Shown: in pieces, positions 2,921-29,674 of the stretch | Numbering within the stretch: position 1 is the stretch's first letter | Layout: each line of letters starts with the position of its first letter | Source of the DNA: a virus | DNA length: 30,385 nt | Reading direction: 5' to 3' (one strand) | Virus record (IMG/VR): IMGVR_UViG_3300007234_000057 | Coordinates: 1-30,385 of that record | Made by a program: the position numbers and the translations under genes | Notes under the pieces: generated by a model | Databases searched by the model: none | What the model was told of the DNA's origin: nothing | The model's input: only the letters and a program-made list of their open reading frames with translations

Positions 2921-3286
2921 ATGAAAAAAACAGAATATAAATATAAAGCACAAGTATACAATGTCGTCGATGGCGATACCTATGATGTAATAATTGATTT
3001 AGGTTTTGATATTAGCGTCAAGCATAGAATTAGACTATTTGGTGTAGATGCATATGAGAGTAGTCTTCGTGGTAATACAACGCCAGAAGAAAAAATTAAA
3101 GGCTTAAAAGCTAAAGATTTTTGCGAAGAAACTTTTAAGAAAGCACATGCAAACAAATCATCTGTTATTGTCGAAACGATACAAGATAAAAAAGGTAAAT
3201 TTGGCCGTTATTTAGCTAAGGTGTATATCGATGGTGTGTCTATTGCTGACATGCTTGAAGAAAAAGGATTTCTAAAAAATGCTTAA
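2921..3286 (+). CDS. Staphylococcal-nuclease-like endonuclease (SNase fold)
   Basis: A 121-residue protein of the thermonuclease family, which hydrolyses DNA or RNA in a Ca2+-dependent way. Visible signatures are VVDGDTYDV (Asp19, matching Asp21 of the staphylococcal enzyme), RLFGVDAYE (Arg38, Asp43 and Glu46, matching Arg35, Asp40 and Glu43) and KFGRYLAKVY (Arg96, matching Arg87). All catalytic positions are kept. ATG 2921 is chosen because a GAGGTG SD sits directly before it; a GTG at 2915 would fall inside that SD. There is no signal peptide, so it probably acts in the cytoplasm on host or phage DNA. It overlaps the next gene by 8 bp. Confidence 0.9.
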   Translation: MKKTEYKYKAQVYNVVDGDTYDVIIDLGFDISVKHRIRLFGVDAYESSLRGNTTPEEKIKGLKAKDFCEETFKKAHANKSSVIVETIQDKKGKFGRYLAKVYIDGVSIADMLEEKGFLKNA

Positions 3287-3746
3287 TATTTTAGGAAATC
3301 TTTTGGGTGGGGTTGTCAATACAGTTGGCGACGTAGTTAAGAAAGATCAGGCAATAAAAGAAATAAAACAAAAAGGTAAGCTTGAGTTGGCCAAAGCAAA
3401 AATGGAAGCTCAAATCGAAAAAATAAAAACAGACAATCAACTAAAAATTGCTAAAGTACAAGCAGAAATTGCCTATCAAACAAGAACGTACGAAGGCGAC
3501 AATGCGTATGATTTGGCAGTGTTAGAGCAAAACAAATATTCGTACATGGATGAATTTCTAAAATGCACAATTATTGCATTAGATGCCTATGTATTTTATA
3601 GATATGGCTTAGACGGACTAGAAAAAATGCCAATGTGGTTGCAATTAGCCAATATAATGATGCTAGTTTCTACAATGGGAGGAAAAGACATATTAAGAAT
3701 GTTTACTAATGGCGGACTTAAAGGATTAGTAAAAAAAAAACGGTAA
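3279..3746 (+). CDS. Holin-like membrane protein (three-TM holin type), frame 0 product
   Basis: A 155-residue protein. The N-terminus (residues 1-22) is an amphipathic or hydrophobic helix. Residues 22-75 form a long charged helix rich in Lys, Glu and Gln. The C-terminal half has two hydrophobic helices (about 93-110, with ALDAYVFYRYG, and 118-135, with LQLANIMMLVS). This layout, with DEFLK before the hydrophobic part, resembles the three-TM holin family found near lysis genes of phages and gene transfer agents; this is resemblance by eye. The gene ends in an A10 tract followed by CGG TAA. A -1 shift at the tract joins it to the transpeptidase-like frame, giving a fusion of about 311 residues. 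Confidence 0.65.
   Translation: MLNILGNLLGGVVNTVGDVVKKDQAIKEIKQKGKLELAKAKMEAQIEKIKTDNQLKIAKVQAEIAYQTRTYEGDNAYDLAVLEQNKYSYMDEFLKCTIIALDAYVFYRYGLDGLEKMPMWLQLANIMMLVSTMGGKDILRMFTNGGLKGLVKKKR
3720..3740 (+). promoter_or_regulatory. Candidate -1 frameshift / slippage signal
   Basis: An AAAGGA SD-like hexamer (3720-3725) lies 9 bp before the heptamer A AAA AAA (3734-3740), which ends an uninterrupted run of ten A (3731-3740). In the zero frame the run is read as AAA AAA AAA CGG TAA. A -1 slip enters the frame that encodes the transpeptidase-like domain. An internal SD about ten bases before an A-rich slippery site is the arrangement known to stimulate frameshifting in E. coli dnaX. Transcriptional slippage on the A10 run is also possible. 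No convincing downstream stem was seen. Confidence 0.55.
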
Positions 3747-4213
3747 ATGACCAAAACGTAACAAATTCTAAAATAGTCACGACTAAAACAGAATCTAATA
3801 TAAACCAGTCGAATTCGACCCCTTTACAATATGATTTATTGTTTAATGTCAAAAGCACATCTGCAAATGCAAAACTTGGGTTCTTATGTATAGGACAAAA
3901 TAAATATATTTGTGTTAGTGGCAAGTATGGATTGGGGGCATTGCCAAAGGGTATGTACAAAATAAACAAATGTTACAAGTTGAAGCCTATTAAAGGTAAA
4001 ACAGAACCTTATACAGGGAAAGAGTTCCCATGGGTTGCTAAACTAACACCGCAATTTAAAACTAATCGATCAAAATTGCTAATACATCCTGACGGTGGCG
4101 TGGAAGGGACTAGAGGATGTATAGGGATTAAGAATAAAGACAAACAAGCCTATGAGCAGATAAGTAATTTATTAAAAGTAAAAAAAGAATTGATATTGTA
4201 TGTAAACAAATAG
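3737..4213 (+). CDS. L,D-transpeptidase-like (YkuD-type) domain, probably made as a frameshift fusion
   Basis: The frame encodes a peptidoglycan-active Cys/His domain: LLIHPDGGVEGTRGCIGI resembles the HxxG-x(n)-GC[IV] active site of L,D-transpeptidases, with the likely catalytic Cys near base 4118. KYGLGALPKGMYKI is the usual upstream glycine-rich strand. The frame is open from 3722, inside the holin-like gene, yet contains no ATG or GTG, and the first TTG (3839) has no SD and would cut into the first strand (YDLLFNVK). Entry by -1 shift at the A10 tract is therefore the best explanation. Residues 154-185 of the fusion would be a Ser/Thr/Asn-rich linker. Placed next to a holin-like gene, it is likely part of lysis or cell-wall penetration. 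Confidence 0.7.
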   Translation, partial: KTVNDQNVTNSKIVTTKTESNINQSNSTPLQYDLLFNVKSTSANAKLGFLCIGQNKYICVSGKYGLGALPKGMYKINKCYKLKPIKGKTEPYTGKEFPWVAKLTPQFKTNRSKLLIHPDGGVEGTRGCIGIKNKDKQAYEQISNLLKVKKELILYVNK

Positions 4214-4252
4214 TAAAATAAATATTGGAAAAGTATGAGCGCCATGTTCATT

Positions 4253-4272
4253 GGGGTAATTAATTTTACCCC
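4253..4272. terminator. Hairpin between convergent genes, possible bidirectional terminator
   Basis: GGGGTAA (4253-4259) pairs with TTACCCC (4266-4272) around a 6-nt AT loop, between the end of the rightward lysis region and the end of the leftward portal operon. The 3' arm touches the stop codon of the leftward gene. There is no long T run on either side, so termination is inferred mostly from position. Confidence 0.4.
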
Positions 4273-4610
4273 TACAAATCTTTTAGATGTTCATTTAATC
4301 TTGTGTAACGACTTATCATAATTCGTTTGTACAATTCAGGTAATTCGGTTTTTATTTTTGTTTTTGTTTCTCTATTACAATGAAATAAATTTTCGTAATA
4401 TCTTAAATATTTTTTTAATAAATTTTTTCTTATTAAAGCTGAATCTCTATAACTGTAACCTATATTGCTTAAATCTATTTCTGTTTTAAGACGTAAAATT
4501 TGTTTTGCTGTATTTATATCTTCTATACTTAAATCTTGTTTATATGCGTTTATTTTGTTTTCTACAATATTAATTGCAGTAAATTTAATAATGGTATATA
4601 CGTTATCCAA
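4272..4610 (-). CDS. Hypothetical protein, last gene of portal operon
   Basis: A 112-residue, Lys/Ile/Leu-rich protein predicted to be almost all helix, with no Cys pairs or catalytic motif that I recognise. The start is TTG immediately after the stop of the upstream gene, with no good SD, so translation is probably coupled. Its place downstream of the portal suggests a head-related or accessory role, but the sequence itself does not show one. Confidence 0.6.
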   Translation of the reverse strand: MDNVYTIIKFTAINIVENKINAYKQDLSIEDINTAKQILRLKTEIDLSNIGYSYRDSALIRKNLLKKYLRYYENLFHCNRETKTKIKTELPELYKRIMISRYTRLNEHLKDL

Positions 4611-19909: not shown

Positions 19910-20164
19910 ATGGAACTTTTTCGATACGCACCGTCACTTTACACACTAATACAAACCGATAGCGGACAATTTTTTTTATTATGCTTTGCGTACGGAATTA
20001 TGGGTATTTACATATACAAAATGTTTAACAAGATAAATTCAATACAAAAAGACATGGAAAAATATAAAAATCAAACTGATGACAATATAAAAAAGGTATT
20101 TGAAGAACTAAAACAAGTATCTCGTGTTGTCTATAAAATGGCTGGAAAACTAGAAATTGACTAA
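19910..20164 (+). CDS. Small protein with N-terminal membrane span and coiled tail
   Basis: An 84-residue protein with a hydrophobic stretch at about 19-39 (GQFFLLCFAYGIMGIYIY) and a Lys/Asn/Glu-rich helical tail. It starts 1 bp after the fibre gene without an SD and overlaps the peptidase gene by 8 bp. In the company of a putative peptidoglycan peptidase it could be a holin or spanin-like lysis protein, but no lipobox or holin family pattern is evident. Confidence 0.6.
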   Translation: MELFRYAPSLYTLIQTDSGQFFLLCFAYGIMGIYIYKMFNKINSIQKDMEKYKNQTDDNIKKVFEELKQVSRVVYKMAGKLEID

Positions 20165-20627
20165 GATTTACATACATTTCCATAACGAAAAATTTAGTAT
20201 TCTAAATCCTTTGTTTTACACAACGGCAATAATTAAGTTTTTCACAAATGATATTTTTTATCATGTTTCAATTCAAATTAACAATATTTACTATGAAGCT
20301 AACTTTTTTAATGGCGTAATAAAATCTAAGAAAATTTCATCTAATATAGGTTTAACTTATGTTTTGGATGTAGACACTAAAACAAAAAGCAAAATCGTAT
20401 CTGAATTAAATGCGCTTATTGGGGCAAAGTATGATTACTTAGCGTTATTATCTGGATTCTTTGGAAAAAAAATACAATCAAAAAAAGCTTATTTTTGTAG
20501 TGAGATTTGTGACATAGTCACGAAAAATGTTTTAGATGTTAGTATTAAAAATATGAATACGAATCCAAGCCCGAAAGATGTGAGAATGATCTTAACCGGA
20601 GCAAAAATAAAAACCATCGTTAAATGA
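20157..20627 (+). CDS. Permuted NlpC/P60-like cysteine peptidase (YiiX/YebB type)
   Basis: A 156-residue protein with the circularly permuted papain-like pattern: FYHVSIQINNIYYEA, giving His36 and Glu47 on neighbouring strands, GAKYDYLALLSGFFG in the middle, and AYFCSEICDIV with the probable nucleophile Cys114 towards the end. Related enzymes cut peptidoglycan peptides or lipid and peptide bonds. TTG 20157 is used; it overlaps the previous gene. Placed after the fibre gene, it may serve lysis or wall penetration, or act inside the host. No signal peptide. Family assignment is by motif only. Confidence 0.65.
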   Translation: MTKIYIHFHNEKFSILNPLFYTTAIIKFFTNDIFYHVSIQINNIYYEANFFNGVIKSKKISSNIGLTYVLDVDTKTKSKIVSELNALIGAKYDYLALLSGFFGKKIQSKKAYFCSEICDIVTKNVLDVSIKNMNTNPSPKDVRMILTGAKIKTIVK

Positions 20628-20659
20628 TTGTATTTTATGCAATGATTGTGTTTTATGCA
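20624..20659 (+). repeat. Tandem 18-bp duplication
   Basis: Two adjacent 18-bp units (20624-20641 and 20642-20659) differ at a single base (A to G at position 9). They begin at the ATGA overlapping the peptidase stop and end in the start of the next gene. Because 18 is a multiple of three, the frame from 20624 stays open. Confidence 0.85.
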
Positions 20660-20665
20660 AAGTAA
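20624..20665 (+). CDS. Possible 13-residue hydrophobic peptide from the tandem repeat
   Basis: ATG 20624 overlaps the peptidase TGA as ATGA and opens a 13-codon frame, MIVFYAMIVFYAK, that ends at TAA 20663-20665. Each 18-bp repeat unit encodes MIVFYA exactly; the single base difference is synonymous (GTA/GTG). It has no SD and would depend on coupled translation. It may be only a linker that brings ribosomes to ATG 20655 of the next gene. Confidence 0.25.
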   Translation: MIVFYAMIVFYAK

Positions 20666-20870
20666 AATAAGTAGTATTAGTGAAACAACATTGCAAGTTT
20701 TAAGCGATGTAGCCTGGAATGTGTTGATTATTAGCCCCTTGGCATATTATCGTCATGGTATCAAAACAGAAGCGATAACAGAACTATTTGTTTTATCGTT
20801 AATCTACAATTTTGTGAAATCTTATGCAATTAGAAGAAAATTTAACAAAAAACAAAAAAAATGTGACTAA
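20655..20870 (+). CDS. Small membrane protein
   Basis: A 71-residue protein from ATG 20655 (an upstream TTG at 20646 lies in the repeat). It has hydrophobic stretches at about 18-31 (AWNVLIISPLAYY) and 41-56 (ELFVLSLIYNFVK) and ends in a Lys/Arg/Asn-rich tail. The two-span hairpin with a basic tail resembles small holins. No SD is seen; translation is probably coupled to the preceding frames. It overlaps the next gene by 47 bp. Confidence 0.55.
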   Translation: MQSKISSISETTLQVLSDVAWNVLIISPLAYYRHGIKTEAITELFVLSLIYNFVKSYAIRRKFNKKQKKCD

Positions 20871-21036
20871 TCTCAAAAAACAATGTGATAATCTTGCATC
20901 ACAACTCAAATCTATTGAGGATTTAACTCGAGTACGTTGGGACAATATCGATAAGGTAATTAATATTTTTAAGTATTCAATTGCTATTATTATTTTAATA
21001 AATTTAACAATCTTATTTTTTATAATAGGTTATTAA
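20824..21036 (+). CDS. Small coiled-coil protein with C-terminal membrane span
   Basis: A 70-residue protein: a Lys/Asn-rich coiled-coil N-terminus (about 3-40) followed by a very hydrophobic C-terminal helix (SIAIIILINLTILFFIIGY). It is the last rightward gene and runs 17 bp into the end of the convergent VRR-NUC gene. The topology (coil plus single span) is like an inner-membrane spanin component turned around, but I cannot assign it. Confidence 0.55.
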   Translation: MQLEENLTKNKKNVTNLKKQCDNLASQLKSIEDLTRVRWDNIDKVINIFKYSIAIIILINLTILFFIIGY

Positions 21037-27451: not shown

Positions 27452-27747
27452 TTATTTACTCCATAAACACTTCCATATTTAACTAAATTATCAATCATCC
27501 AGTCATAACCAAGAAAGTTGCCTGATACTTTATCTCTTGGCTTTGCGATTTTAGCTTCTATACCAATAGTAAACGGGTCATTCCATGAATAATTAAATCT
27601 GGCCATACTATTATTTGATAATCCAATACCCCCCAATTCTTCAGCTCCTAATGATCTTGCAATACTATATTTTTTATTTTGCATCAATTCCCTTGATCTT
27701 ACAGGCCATCCGCTTATATCAATTGTAAAAATTACTCGTTTATTCAT
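27448..27747 (-). CDS. Hypothetical protein
   Basis: A 99-residue protein with a beta start (RVIFTIDISGW), a helical RSRELMQNKKYSIARSLG stretch, then a Gly/Ser/Asn-rich centre (GGIGLSNNSMARFNYSW) and SGNFLGYDWMIDNLVKYG near the end. No known motif. It overlaps the DUF4116-type gene upstream as ATGA and the next gene likewise, showing strong translational coupling. GGAGG precedes it. Confidence 0.6.
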   Translation of the reverse strand: MNKRVIFTIDISGWPVRSRELMQNKKYSIARSLGAEELGGIGLSNNSMARFNYSWNDPFTIGIEAKIAKPRDKVSGNFLGYDWMIDNLVKYGSVYGVNK

Positions 27748-28418
27748 TTTTGAGCCTCCATATGTTTAATCCATAAGTTTACAATTTCAAATTGCAATTC
27801 ATAGCTTGCATAAAACCACGCATGAGTATACTGCCCCAATGCTTGCATCACAACCTCACGATCCCCACGCAATTCCTCACTGGCATACTCCAACGCACGC
27901 CCATCCTGCTTGACCGCTTCTATCACTACCTCACGATCATTTTTCAGGTCTTTGCTCGCATATCGCAAACAGTATCCATCCTGCTTGACCGCCTCGAGTA
28001 CAACCTCACGATCATTTTTTAATTCTTCACTGGCATACTCCAACGCATACTCCAACGCATGCCCCCAGTCTTTGACCGCTTCCATGACAAACTCACGATC
28101 CCCACGCAATTCCTCACTGGCATACTCAAACGCAGGCCCCCAGTGTTTAACCGCTTCCATGACCACCTCACGATCACCACGCAATTCCTCACTCGCAGAT
28201 TCCAAGGCAAGACCATACCTTTTAACAGCTTCCAGCACAACCTCACGATCACCTTGCAATTGCTTACTGGCATACAAAACCGCAAAACCATCGTGTTTCA
28301 CTGCTTCCATGACGAGTTCACGATCACCACGCAATTCGTCACTAGCATACAAAAACGCACTAGTATCATTTTTCACTGCTTCTAGCACTTCTTCTTTTGT
28401 ACTGTTTTTATTTATCAT
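27744..28418 (-). CDS. DUF4116-type repeat protein, 7 units
   Basis: A 224-residue protein built from 25-residue units with the consensus DGxALxYASEELRGDREVVxEAVK; DUF4116 in other organisms covers about two such units. A 16-residue cap (MINKNSTKEEVLEAVK) precedes seven units (residues 17-195), and a diverged final unit ends the protein (FYASYELQFEIVNLWIKHM). The fifth unit is four residues longer through a duplicated ALEY. Alternating helices suggest a solenoid that binds a protein or nucleic acid. No catalytic residues and no signal peptide. GGAGG precedes ATG 28418, which overlaps the upstream paralogue as ATGA. Confidence 0.8.
   Translation of the reverse strand: MINKNSTKEEVLEAVKNDTSAFLYASDELRGDRELVMEAVKHDGFAVLYASKQLQGDREVVLEAVKRYGLALESASEELRGDREVVMEAVKHWGPAFEYASEELRGDREFVMEAVKDWGHALEYALEYASEELKNDREVVLEAVKQDGYCLRYASKDLKNDREVVIEAVKQDGRALEYASEELRGDREVVMQALGQYTHAWFYASYELQFEIVNLWIKHMEAQK
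27834..28370 (-). repeat. Coding 75-bp tandem repeats (gene 1)
   Basis: Seven head-to-tail units, six of 75 bp and one of 87 bp; the longer one contains a 12-bp tandem duplication (28035-28058). Bases 28281-28376 are identical to 28865-28960 in the neighbouring paralogue. Confidence 0.85.
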
Positions 28419-29302
28419 TTTTTTTCCTCCATATGTTCAACCCATAAGTTTGCAATTTCAAATTGCAACCAATCGCTTGCATATTTACACGCATATACAT
28501 TTTGCCTCATTGCTTCTATCACCACCTCACGATCACCTTGCAATTCCTCACTGGCATACTGCAACGCACTCCCCCAGTCTTTCACCGCTTCCATGACAAC
28601 CTCACGATCACCACGCAATTTTTTACTAGCATATTTCAACGCAAGACCATACCTTTTAACAGCTTCCAGCACCACCTCACGATCACCTTGCAATTCCTCA
28701 CCGGCATACAACAACGCAAAACCATCGTGTTTCACTGCTTCCATGACAACCTCACGATCACCACGCAATTCCTCACTGGCATACTCCAAGGCAAGACCAT
28801 ACCTTTTAACAGCTTCCAGCACCACCTCACGATCACCTTGCAATTCCTCACCGGCATACAACAACGCAAAACCATCGTGTTTCACTGCTTCCATGACGAG
28901 TTCACGATCACCACGCAATTCGTCACTAGCATACAAAAACGCACTAGTATCATTTTTCACCGCTTCCATGACAACCTCACGATCACCTTGCAATTGCTTA
29001 CTGGCATACTCCAACGCACAACCAAACTCTTTCACTGCTTCTAGCACAAACTCACGATCACCTTGCAATTGCTTACTGGCATACTCCAACGCATGGATAT
29101 TCTGCCTGAATGCTTCCAGCACAACCTCACGATCACCACGCAATTCATCAGACGCAAACCTCAACGATGAAGCAGACTCCATAATGGCTTCCAGTACAAC
29201 TTCACGATCCTCTTTTAATTCCTGACGTGCATACTGCAACGCGTAACCATCATTTCTAACGGCTTCCATCACTTCTTCTCTTGTACTTTTTTCATCTATC
29301 AT
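28415..29302 (-). CDS. DUF4116-type repeat protein, 10 units
   Basis: A 295-residue paralogue of the neighbouring repeat protein: a 16-residue cap (MIDEKSTREEVMEAVR), exactly ten 25-residue units (residues 17-266) and a diverged final unit with LQFEIANLWVEHM. Units 6-7 and 8-9 are nearly identical, pointing to a recent 150-bp duplication. Each unit has the constant GDREVV core and a variable part of the form xxxxALxYA, where surface residues differ from unit to unit. It is cytoplasmic by lack of signal. GGAGG precedes ATG 29302. I infer a host-interaction or decoy role only from early position and repeat architecture. Confidence 0.8.
   Translation of the reverse strand: MIDEKSTREEVMEAVRNDGYALQYARQELKEDREVVLEAIMESASSLRFASDELRGDREVVLEAFRQNIHALEYASKQLQGDREFVLEAVKEFGCALEYASKQLQGDREVVMEAVKNDTSAFLYASDELRGDRELVMEAVKHDGFALLYAGEELQGDREVVLEAVKRYGLALEYASEELRGDREVVMEAVKHDGFALLYAGEELQGDREVVLEAVKRYGLALKYASKKLRGDREVVMEAVKDWGSALQYASEELQGDREVVIEAMRQNVYACKYASDWLQFEIANLWVEHMEEKK
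28505..29254 (-). repeat. Coding 75-bp tandem repeats (gene 2), ten units
   Basis: Ten units of exactly 75 bp. Bases 28641-28747 are identical to 28791-28897 (107 bp, offset 150 bp). Despite its regularity this is coding sequence, not a CRISPR array: the units abut without spacers and keep the reading frame. Confidence 0.85.
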
Positions 29303-29674
29303 TTATTTTCCTCCATTCACAACATTTTTTTCGACAAACATTGTTTTGCTTTGACATCTTAGATATCTATTCGTTTTTAATTCATAATCCATATTGATTT
29401 GATCTGGGTTTATTTCAATTCCCCATGAAGTAACCCTATAAGGCCGTCCACGCCTATCTATAAGAACACCATCGATGTCTATACTAAGAGCAAGACCGTT
29501 GTCGTAGTAAGCCCATGCATCACTATAGAACTCATAGAACTTTGAATCGTTACCAAGTTTTTTACTTCCTTTAATTTGTATTTTTGTACCGTATTCATTG
29601 TTTTTTTTTACAAATTTATCAAAAATAAAAAATTTAATTGCAAAGATAACTGCAATAATTCCACCTAACTTCAA
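29303..29674 (-). CDS. Membrane-anchored hypothetical protein
   Basis: A 123-residue protein with an N-terminal hydrophobic segment (GGIIAVIFAIKFFIFDKFV) as signal anchor and a mostly beta C-terminal domain of about 100 residues (KFYEFYSDAWAYYDNGLALS; GVLIDRRGRPYRVTSWG). TTG 29674 is the start, with GGAGGT upstream and a TTGA overlap with the preceding gene. It is the third gene of the early operon. A periplasmic or membrane-surface role is likely. Confidence 0.6.
   Translation of the reverse strand: MKLGGIIAVIFAIKFFIFDKFVKKNNEYGTKIQIKGSKKLGNDSKFYEFYSDAWAYYDNGLALSIDIDGVLIDRRGRPYRVTSWGIEINPDQINMDYELKTNRYLRCQSKTMFVEKNVVNGGK

Follow-up and report, generated by a model that had tools for sequence, protein, structure and literature searches.

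A ten-adenine tract links a holin-like gene to a startless L,D-transpeptidase frame in a viral genome: a likely case of recoding by RNA-polymerase slippage

How can a cell-wall enzyme be produced from a reading frame that has no usable start codon? This question is raised by a locus in the virus record analysed here, of which the whole length of 30,385 bases is called the window. In this locus, a holin-like frame and an L,D-transpeptidase (LDT)-like frame meet at ten A. The preliminary description placed a -1 shift at this site, giving a protein of about 311 residues. Coordinates and frames were confirmed, the frame relation was found to be kept in diverged relatives, and translation with a -1 shift inside the A10 tract gives a predicted fusion of 311 amino acids. 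The elements of the locus are the following:

3279..3746, plus strand: holin-like membrane protein gene, 155 aa; PHROG 2524 match, E 4e-12
3731..3740, plus strand: A10 tract, putative site of slippage, read in the zero frame as ..A AAA AAA AAA CGG; A9-A11 in 26/26 distinct junctions
3744..3746, plus strand: zero-frame stop TAA, one codon past the A tract; TAAATGA in nearly all relatives
3720..3725, plus strand: SD-like AAAGGA; in one membrane-domain type only, hence not a required element
3722..4213, plus strand: -1 frame without usable start, 163 codons; Ser/Thr/Asn linker and predicted L,D-transpeptidase domain
3802..3826, plus strand: palindrome AAACCAGTCGAATTCGACCCCTTTA within the linker; conserved even at its synonymous sites, and present in unrelated phages too
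4085..4129, plus strand: catalytic motif HPDGGVEGTRGCIGI, with the codons of His at 4085 and of Cys at 4118; family-invariant HPDG...GT.GCIGI

The last part of an SNase-like gene is overlapped by the holin-like ORF, whose own 3′ end reads GTA-AAA-AAA-AAA-CGG-TAA. The A AAA AAA heptamer occupies positions 3734-3740. The AAAGGA motif reported upstream of it is indeed present, but at a spacing of eight bases, not nine, and it is confined to the membrane-domain type of the window. A10 is the longest A run of the window; on the coding strand of the predicted genes, 14 A/T runs are of exactly eight and just two are of at least nine. The gene at 29303-29674 is the sole other predicted gene having a coding-strand run of nine A. 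At 27744-29302, two neighbouring minus-strand ORFs are built of DREVVMEAVK..G.ALEYASEELRG-type repeats. Three further assemblies match the window at 100% over 4.2-6.5 kb, including the A10 tract. The host could not be assigned from the terminase, whose matches were all below 60% identity and spread across many hosts, or from the portal, which gave one weak match.

Relatives were collected as viral contigs matched by each half or by the junction pattern, and were then submitted to frame analysis. In 24 of the 26 distinct junctions, the enzyme lies in the -1 frame behind A9, A10 or A11. These junctions have what is expected of a recoded gene, namely two overlapping frames in a conserved relation and a slippery site within the overlap. 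In one locus (L005), the A11 counts the first base of AGG and the enzyme frame is -1. One junction carries A9 with the enzyme in the +1 frame (L056 group; loci L174-L177 are 97.5-98.7% identical, with A9 in all four). The remaining one answers the earlier suggestion to look for a fused single-frame gene: it is a natural in-frame A11 fusion (L110, L179, L180), 99.4% identical in L110/L180 to an A10 form (L121). Separately, the two ends of contig 3300021379_001448 (L004 and L039) overlap by 139 bases and differ solely by A11 versus A10, which may correspond to within-sample variation of the tract length or to an assembly artefact. Identity among the membrane halves goes down to 38%, and two membrane-domain types exist, with a mutual identity of only about 40%. 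Either type is paired with LDT domains 80-88% identical to that of the window, which indicates that modules have been exchanged around the tract.

Both the startless frame and the tract bear marks of selection, as the alignments make apparent. The median dN/dS of the LDT frame is 0.17 (range 0.05-0.36, 118 pairs), indicative of purifying selection, and its HPDG...GT.GCIGI pattern does not vary. The tract codons are AAA in 66 cases out of 66 and never AAG; the non-tract lysines of the membrane gene are encoded by 247 AAA and 57 AAG (about 19% AAG), and 37 of the 40 invariant codons of this gene show synonymous variation. These counts come from related sequences, hence no formal p-value is given, and shared ancestry may partly contribute to the absence of AAG from the tract.

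What is encoded behind the tract? Pfam searches pointed to Tlde1_dom (E 2e-6) and YkuD (E 0.003), both near but below the curated cut-offs. In an AlphaFold2 model of the natural fusion L110 (27 rows), the enzyme domain has a pLDDT of about 80. Foldseek alone gave no significant match to this domain in the PDB, and a PDB sequence-profile search returned chance matches only. When Foldseek candidates were aligned with VIA-align, the top 50 rows were all L,D-transpeptidases or carboxypeptidases, with Z scores of 11.4 for YkuD (1y7m), 11.1 for Csd6, 11.0 for Bd1075 and 10.7 for Tlde1a (7uma). According to this model, the enzyme half has a YkuD/Tlde1-type L,D-transpeptidase fold with a catalytic His/Cys motif. 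The predicted fold and the HPDG...GT.GCIGI pattern are shared with the Tlde1, YkuD, Csd6 and Bd1075 L,D-transpeptidases and L,D-carboxypeptidases; in contrast to these, the predicted enzyme is phage-borne and joined to a holin-like domain. No match to the LDT frame was obtained by tblastn against GenBank phages. In three distant relatives (L191-L193), the enzyme is a standalone gene with its own ATG, in two cases directly behind a small membrane gene. This arrangement is the two-gene counterpart of the fusion.

The 155-aa protein begins with a hydrophobic N-terminus, followed by a charged helix; towards the C-terminus come two hydrophobic segments and then the KKKR tail, which is strongly positive. 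Its hydrophobic segments are weak to moderate in strength. The family that it matches significantly, PHROG 2524, is functionally unannotated. This family also includes ACA1 gp23, called a holin by its authors on the basis of an HHpred match to GTA_holin_3TM. The other membrane-domain type (L038) has itself a weak match to GTA_holin_3TM (E 0.009, below cut-off). GTA_holin_3TM and PHROG 2524 proteins are like the present one in length and hydrophobic layout. However, in the GenBank members that were inspected, ACA1 gp23 and that of Vibrio phage 1.101.O, no annotated LDT gene follows, unlike in the window. The AlphaFold2 model of the membrane half was poor (pLDDT mostly 40-65) and no fold is claimed.

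Between the tract and the enzyme domain, the linker carries a palindrome whose distance from the tract ranges from 11 to 56 bases; its consensus is TTTTAAACCnGTCGAAWTCGACCnSTTTARA. Beyond this family, it recurs at other loci (L371, L400, L412 and others). It is present in unrelated AT-rich phages, with 25 of 39 AT-rich matches against 2 of 27 GC-rich ones. It is also found in phages and satellites of the Firmicutes Streptococcus, Staphylococcus and Lactobacillus, in several cases just past a gene end. Rfam gave no match for positions 3600-4300 or for five palindrome loci, and the palindrome was not found in a literature search of partial coverage.

Considering these data, the locus is probably a recoded two-product gene, encoding the 155-aa protein and the 311-aa fusion, and the likeliest cause would be slippage of RNA polymerase. 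Several other explanations may be envisaged. The enzyme might be initiated separately, at TTG 3839, at a non-standard codon or by reinitiation after TAAATG. TTG 3839 is indeed the earliest possible start of the -1 frame, and the zero-frame stop runs into TAAATGA in nearly all relatives. The preliminary description held that the enzyme has no usable start. This point stands, but TTG 3839 is not the sole candidate, being followed by more TTG and one ATG. All of them, TTG 3839 included, fall within the enzyme domain. The position of the first start differs among relatives, and L101 has none ahead of the catalytic motif. The frame is coding and devoid of a usable start, as expected of the downstream part of a recoded gene, and separate initiation is very improbable. 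Re-initiation at TAAATG was rejected, its ATG being in the zero frame, which closes within 15 codons in 19 of the 19 sequences listed. A simple fused gene, broken only by an error of sequencing or assembly, would fit the error-prone nature of homopolymers and the existence of the in-frame A11 version. Yet the same frame recurs in independent assemblies and in many diverged relatives, with the zero-frame stop directly behind the tract, and such an error is hardly credible. Another model would be phase variation, where replication slippage alters the tract length and virions switch between the short protein and the fusion, with no recoding. It accounts for A10 and A11 in near-identical genomes (L121, L110) as well as in the overlapping ends of a single contig (L039, L004), and for A9 with a +1 enzyme in the L056 group. 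However, a random switch would spread over the three frames, whereas a single one is used in 24 of 26 junction types, and the A10 of the window is exactly common to three other assemblies. We view this model as improbable.

The choice of the slipping machinery is less clear-cut. Programmed -1 ribosomal frameshifting on A AAA AAA alone agrees with the phase of the heptamer, correct in all -1 relatives, with AAAGGA upstream of it in the type of the window and with stable downstream stems in several relatives. The preliminary description had retained such a shift and pointed to AAAGGA ahead of the heptamer. In that form it is not supported: the motif is absent from the other membrane-domain type, and the downstream stems stand at variable distances, 11 to 56 bases from the tract. 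Moreover, seven A would suffice and A AAA AAG would be acceptable, yet at least nine A are kept and AAG is absent. In E. coli, A_AAA_AAA is far weaker than A_AAA_AAG (PMC5009743). Furthermore, a -1 ribosomal shift cannot serve the +1 genotype of the L056 group. In vitro, ribosome sliding is robust on A11 but little is seen on A9-A10 (PMC4363877). Ribosomal frameshifting as the only cause is therefore judged unlikely. RNA-polymerase slippage is favoured over it, short of proof, because the feature that is kept is a run of at least nine uninterrupted A, as expected for transcriptional slippage, and not a heptamer with stimulators. Since AAAGGA is type-specific and the stem distance variable, the site is accounted for no less well by polymerase slippage. 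In transcripts, insertions at A/T runs are mostly of one base and become exponentially more frequent as the run lengthens (PMC5574713); one inserted base is precisely what gives access to the -1 frame. With enterobacterial polymerase, slippage occurs on runs of nine A and above (PMC6260861, PMC5009743), and transcriptional slippage at the A11 of tssM reaches about 20% (PMC4256274). Counting against polymerase slippage, poly(A) slips less readily than poly(T) with the E. coli enzyme (PMC6260861).

In the mechanism that we propose, default expression would yield the 155-aa holin-like membrane protein. In part of the expression, slippage at the A9-A11 tract would lead to reading of the -1 frame and append the linker and the L,D-transpeptidase/carboxypeptidase-type domain, for a total of 311 aa. 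Most likely, the mRNA would gain one A through slippage of RNA polymerase; a -1 shift of the ribosome on A AAA AAA may act instead or in addition, and the same protein would result from either. That -1 recoding at the A tract joins the membrane protein to the enzyme, as first put forward, is supported by the frame relation, purifying selection, the want of a usable start and the A11 relative. In a minority of copies, the fusion would then tether to holin-like oligomers an enzyme that trims or edits the wall; its role may lie in lysis, in wall editing or in exclusion. A membrane-anchored wall enzyme, as initially suggested, is plausible, but the positive tail before the linker argues, by the positive-inside rule, for a cytoplasmic C-terminus of the membrane half. 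Because of this location, the enzyme would stay in the cytoplasm and reach the peptidoglycan only at or after membrane opening. Elsewhere in the window, the protein encoded at 20157-20627 has a significant match to PHROG 1128 and presumably resembles, judged by eye, a permuted NlpC/P60-type hydrolase. It lies beside small membrane genes (19910-21036), with which it possibly forms a second lysis module.

A main short protein and a minor product with a -1 C-terminal extension are made from one gene by programmed frameshifting in lambda (gpG/gpG-T) and T7 (10A/10B). However, these systems use a classical slippery heptamer with stimulators, whereas here an A9-A11 tract is found and a membrane protein would gain an enzyme domain. 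A long A run shortly before the zero-frame stop is shared with TssM1 of Citrobacter rodentium and MxiE/Spa13 of Shigella. In these bacterial secretion genes, an added A gives the longer product by transcriptional slippage; here slippage is proposed from sequence alone, for a phage membrane/wall-enzyme gene whose tract is kept across a diverse family. In one phage precedent, a wall-lytic function is reportedly divided over overlapping frames; its enzyme is different from the present one, and it is not known to include a holin-like half. A holin-enzyme fusion by frameshift was not found in a literature search of partial coverage.

Is the arrangement particular to this family? A pattern scan was made for A9-NRR-TAAATGA behind upstream ORFs of 60 codons or longer, and AAG-broken Lys runs served as the control. 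Among the matches listed, many of which are related, 40 of 41 gene ends continue for at least 60 codons in -1, against 2 of 14 in the control, where many are related as well. At least seven gene families show the signature of an A tract with a -1 continuation. In a second family (L044, L048, L083, L084, L092 and others), A10, a stop and a startless -1 frame follow each other. There, a membrane domain extends a protein that we take by eye to be EF-hand-like; 16 distinct sequences carry A10, and no start is conserved among them. At the tract, one C-terminal half is found joined to either of two unlike N-terminal halves, and tblastn of this -1 frame against GenBank phages gave no match. At L070 2189, a 733-aa ORF ends in an A tract and its -1 continuation is CHAP-like (Pfam E 4.5e-5, just below cut-off). 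Some cases, which on reading by eye we presume to resemble T4-gp20-type portals, have early possible starts and are weaker examples. It is tempting to imagine, as a tentative proposal that we hold possible rather than probable, that at least nine A followed by an immediate stop constitute a widespread phage recoding cassette. Acting by RNA-polymerase slippage, it would add C-terminal domains to unrelated proteins and double as a joint for module exchange.

At such a locus, gene callers would annotate a small membrane gene, and the enzyme, for want of its own start codon, would be misplaced or lost. Were the signature general, numerous phage proteins would carry C-terminal domains missed by annotation, cell-wall enzymes among them, and slippage could be studied in metagenomes as in a natural test set. 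Should a minority of the holin-like copies indeed bring a wall enzyme with them, the arrangement would be new to phage lysis or wall editing.
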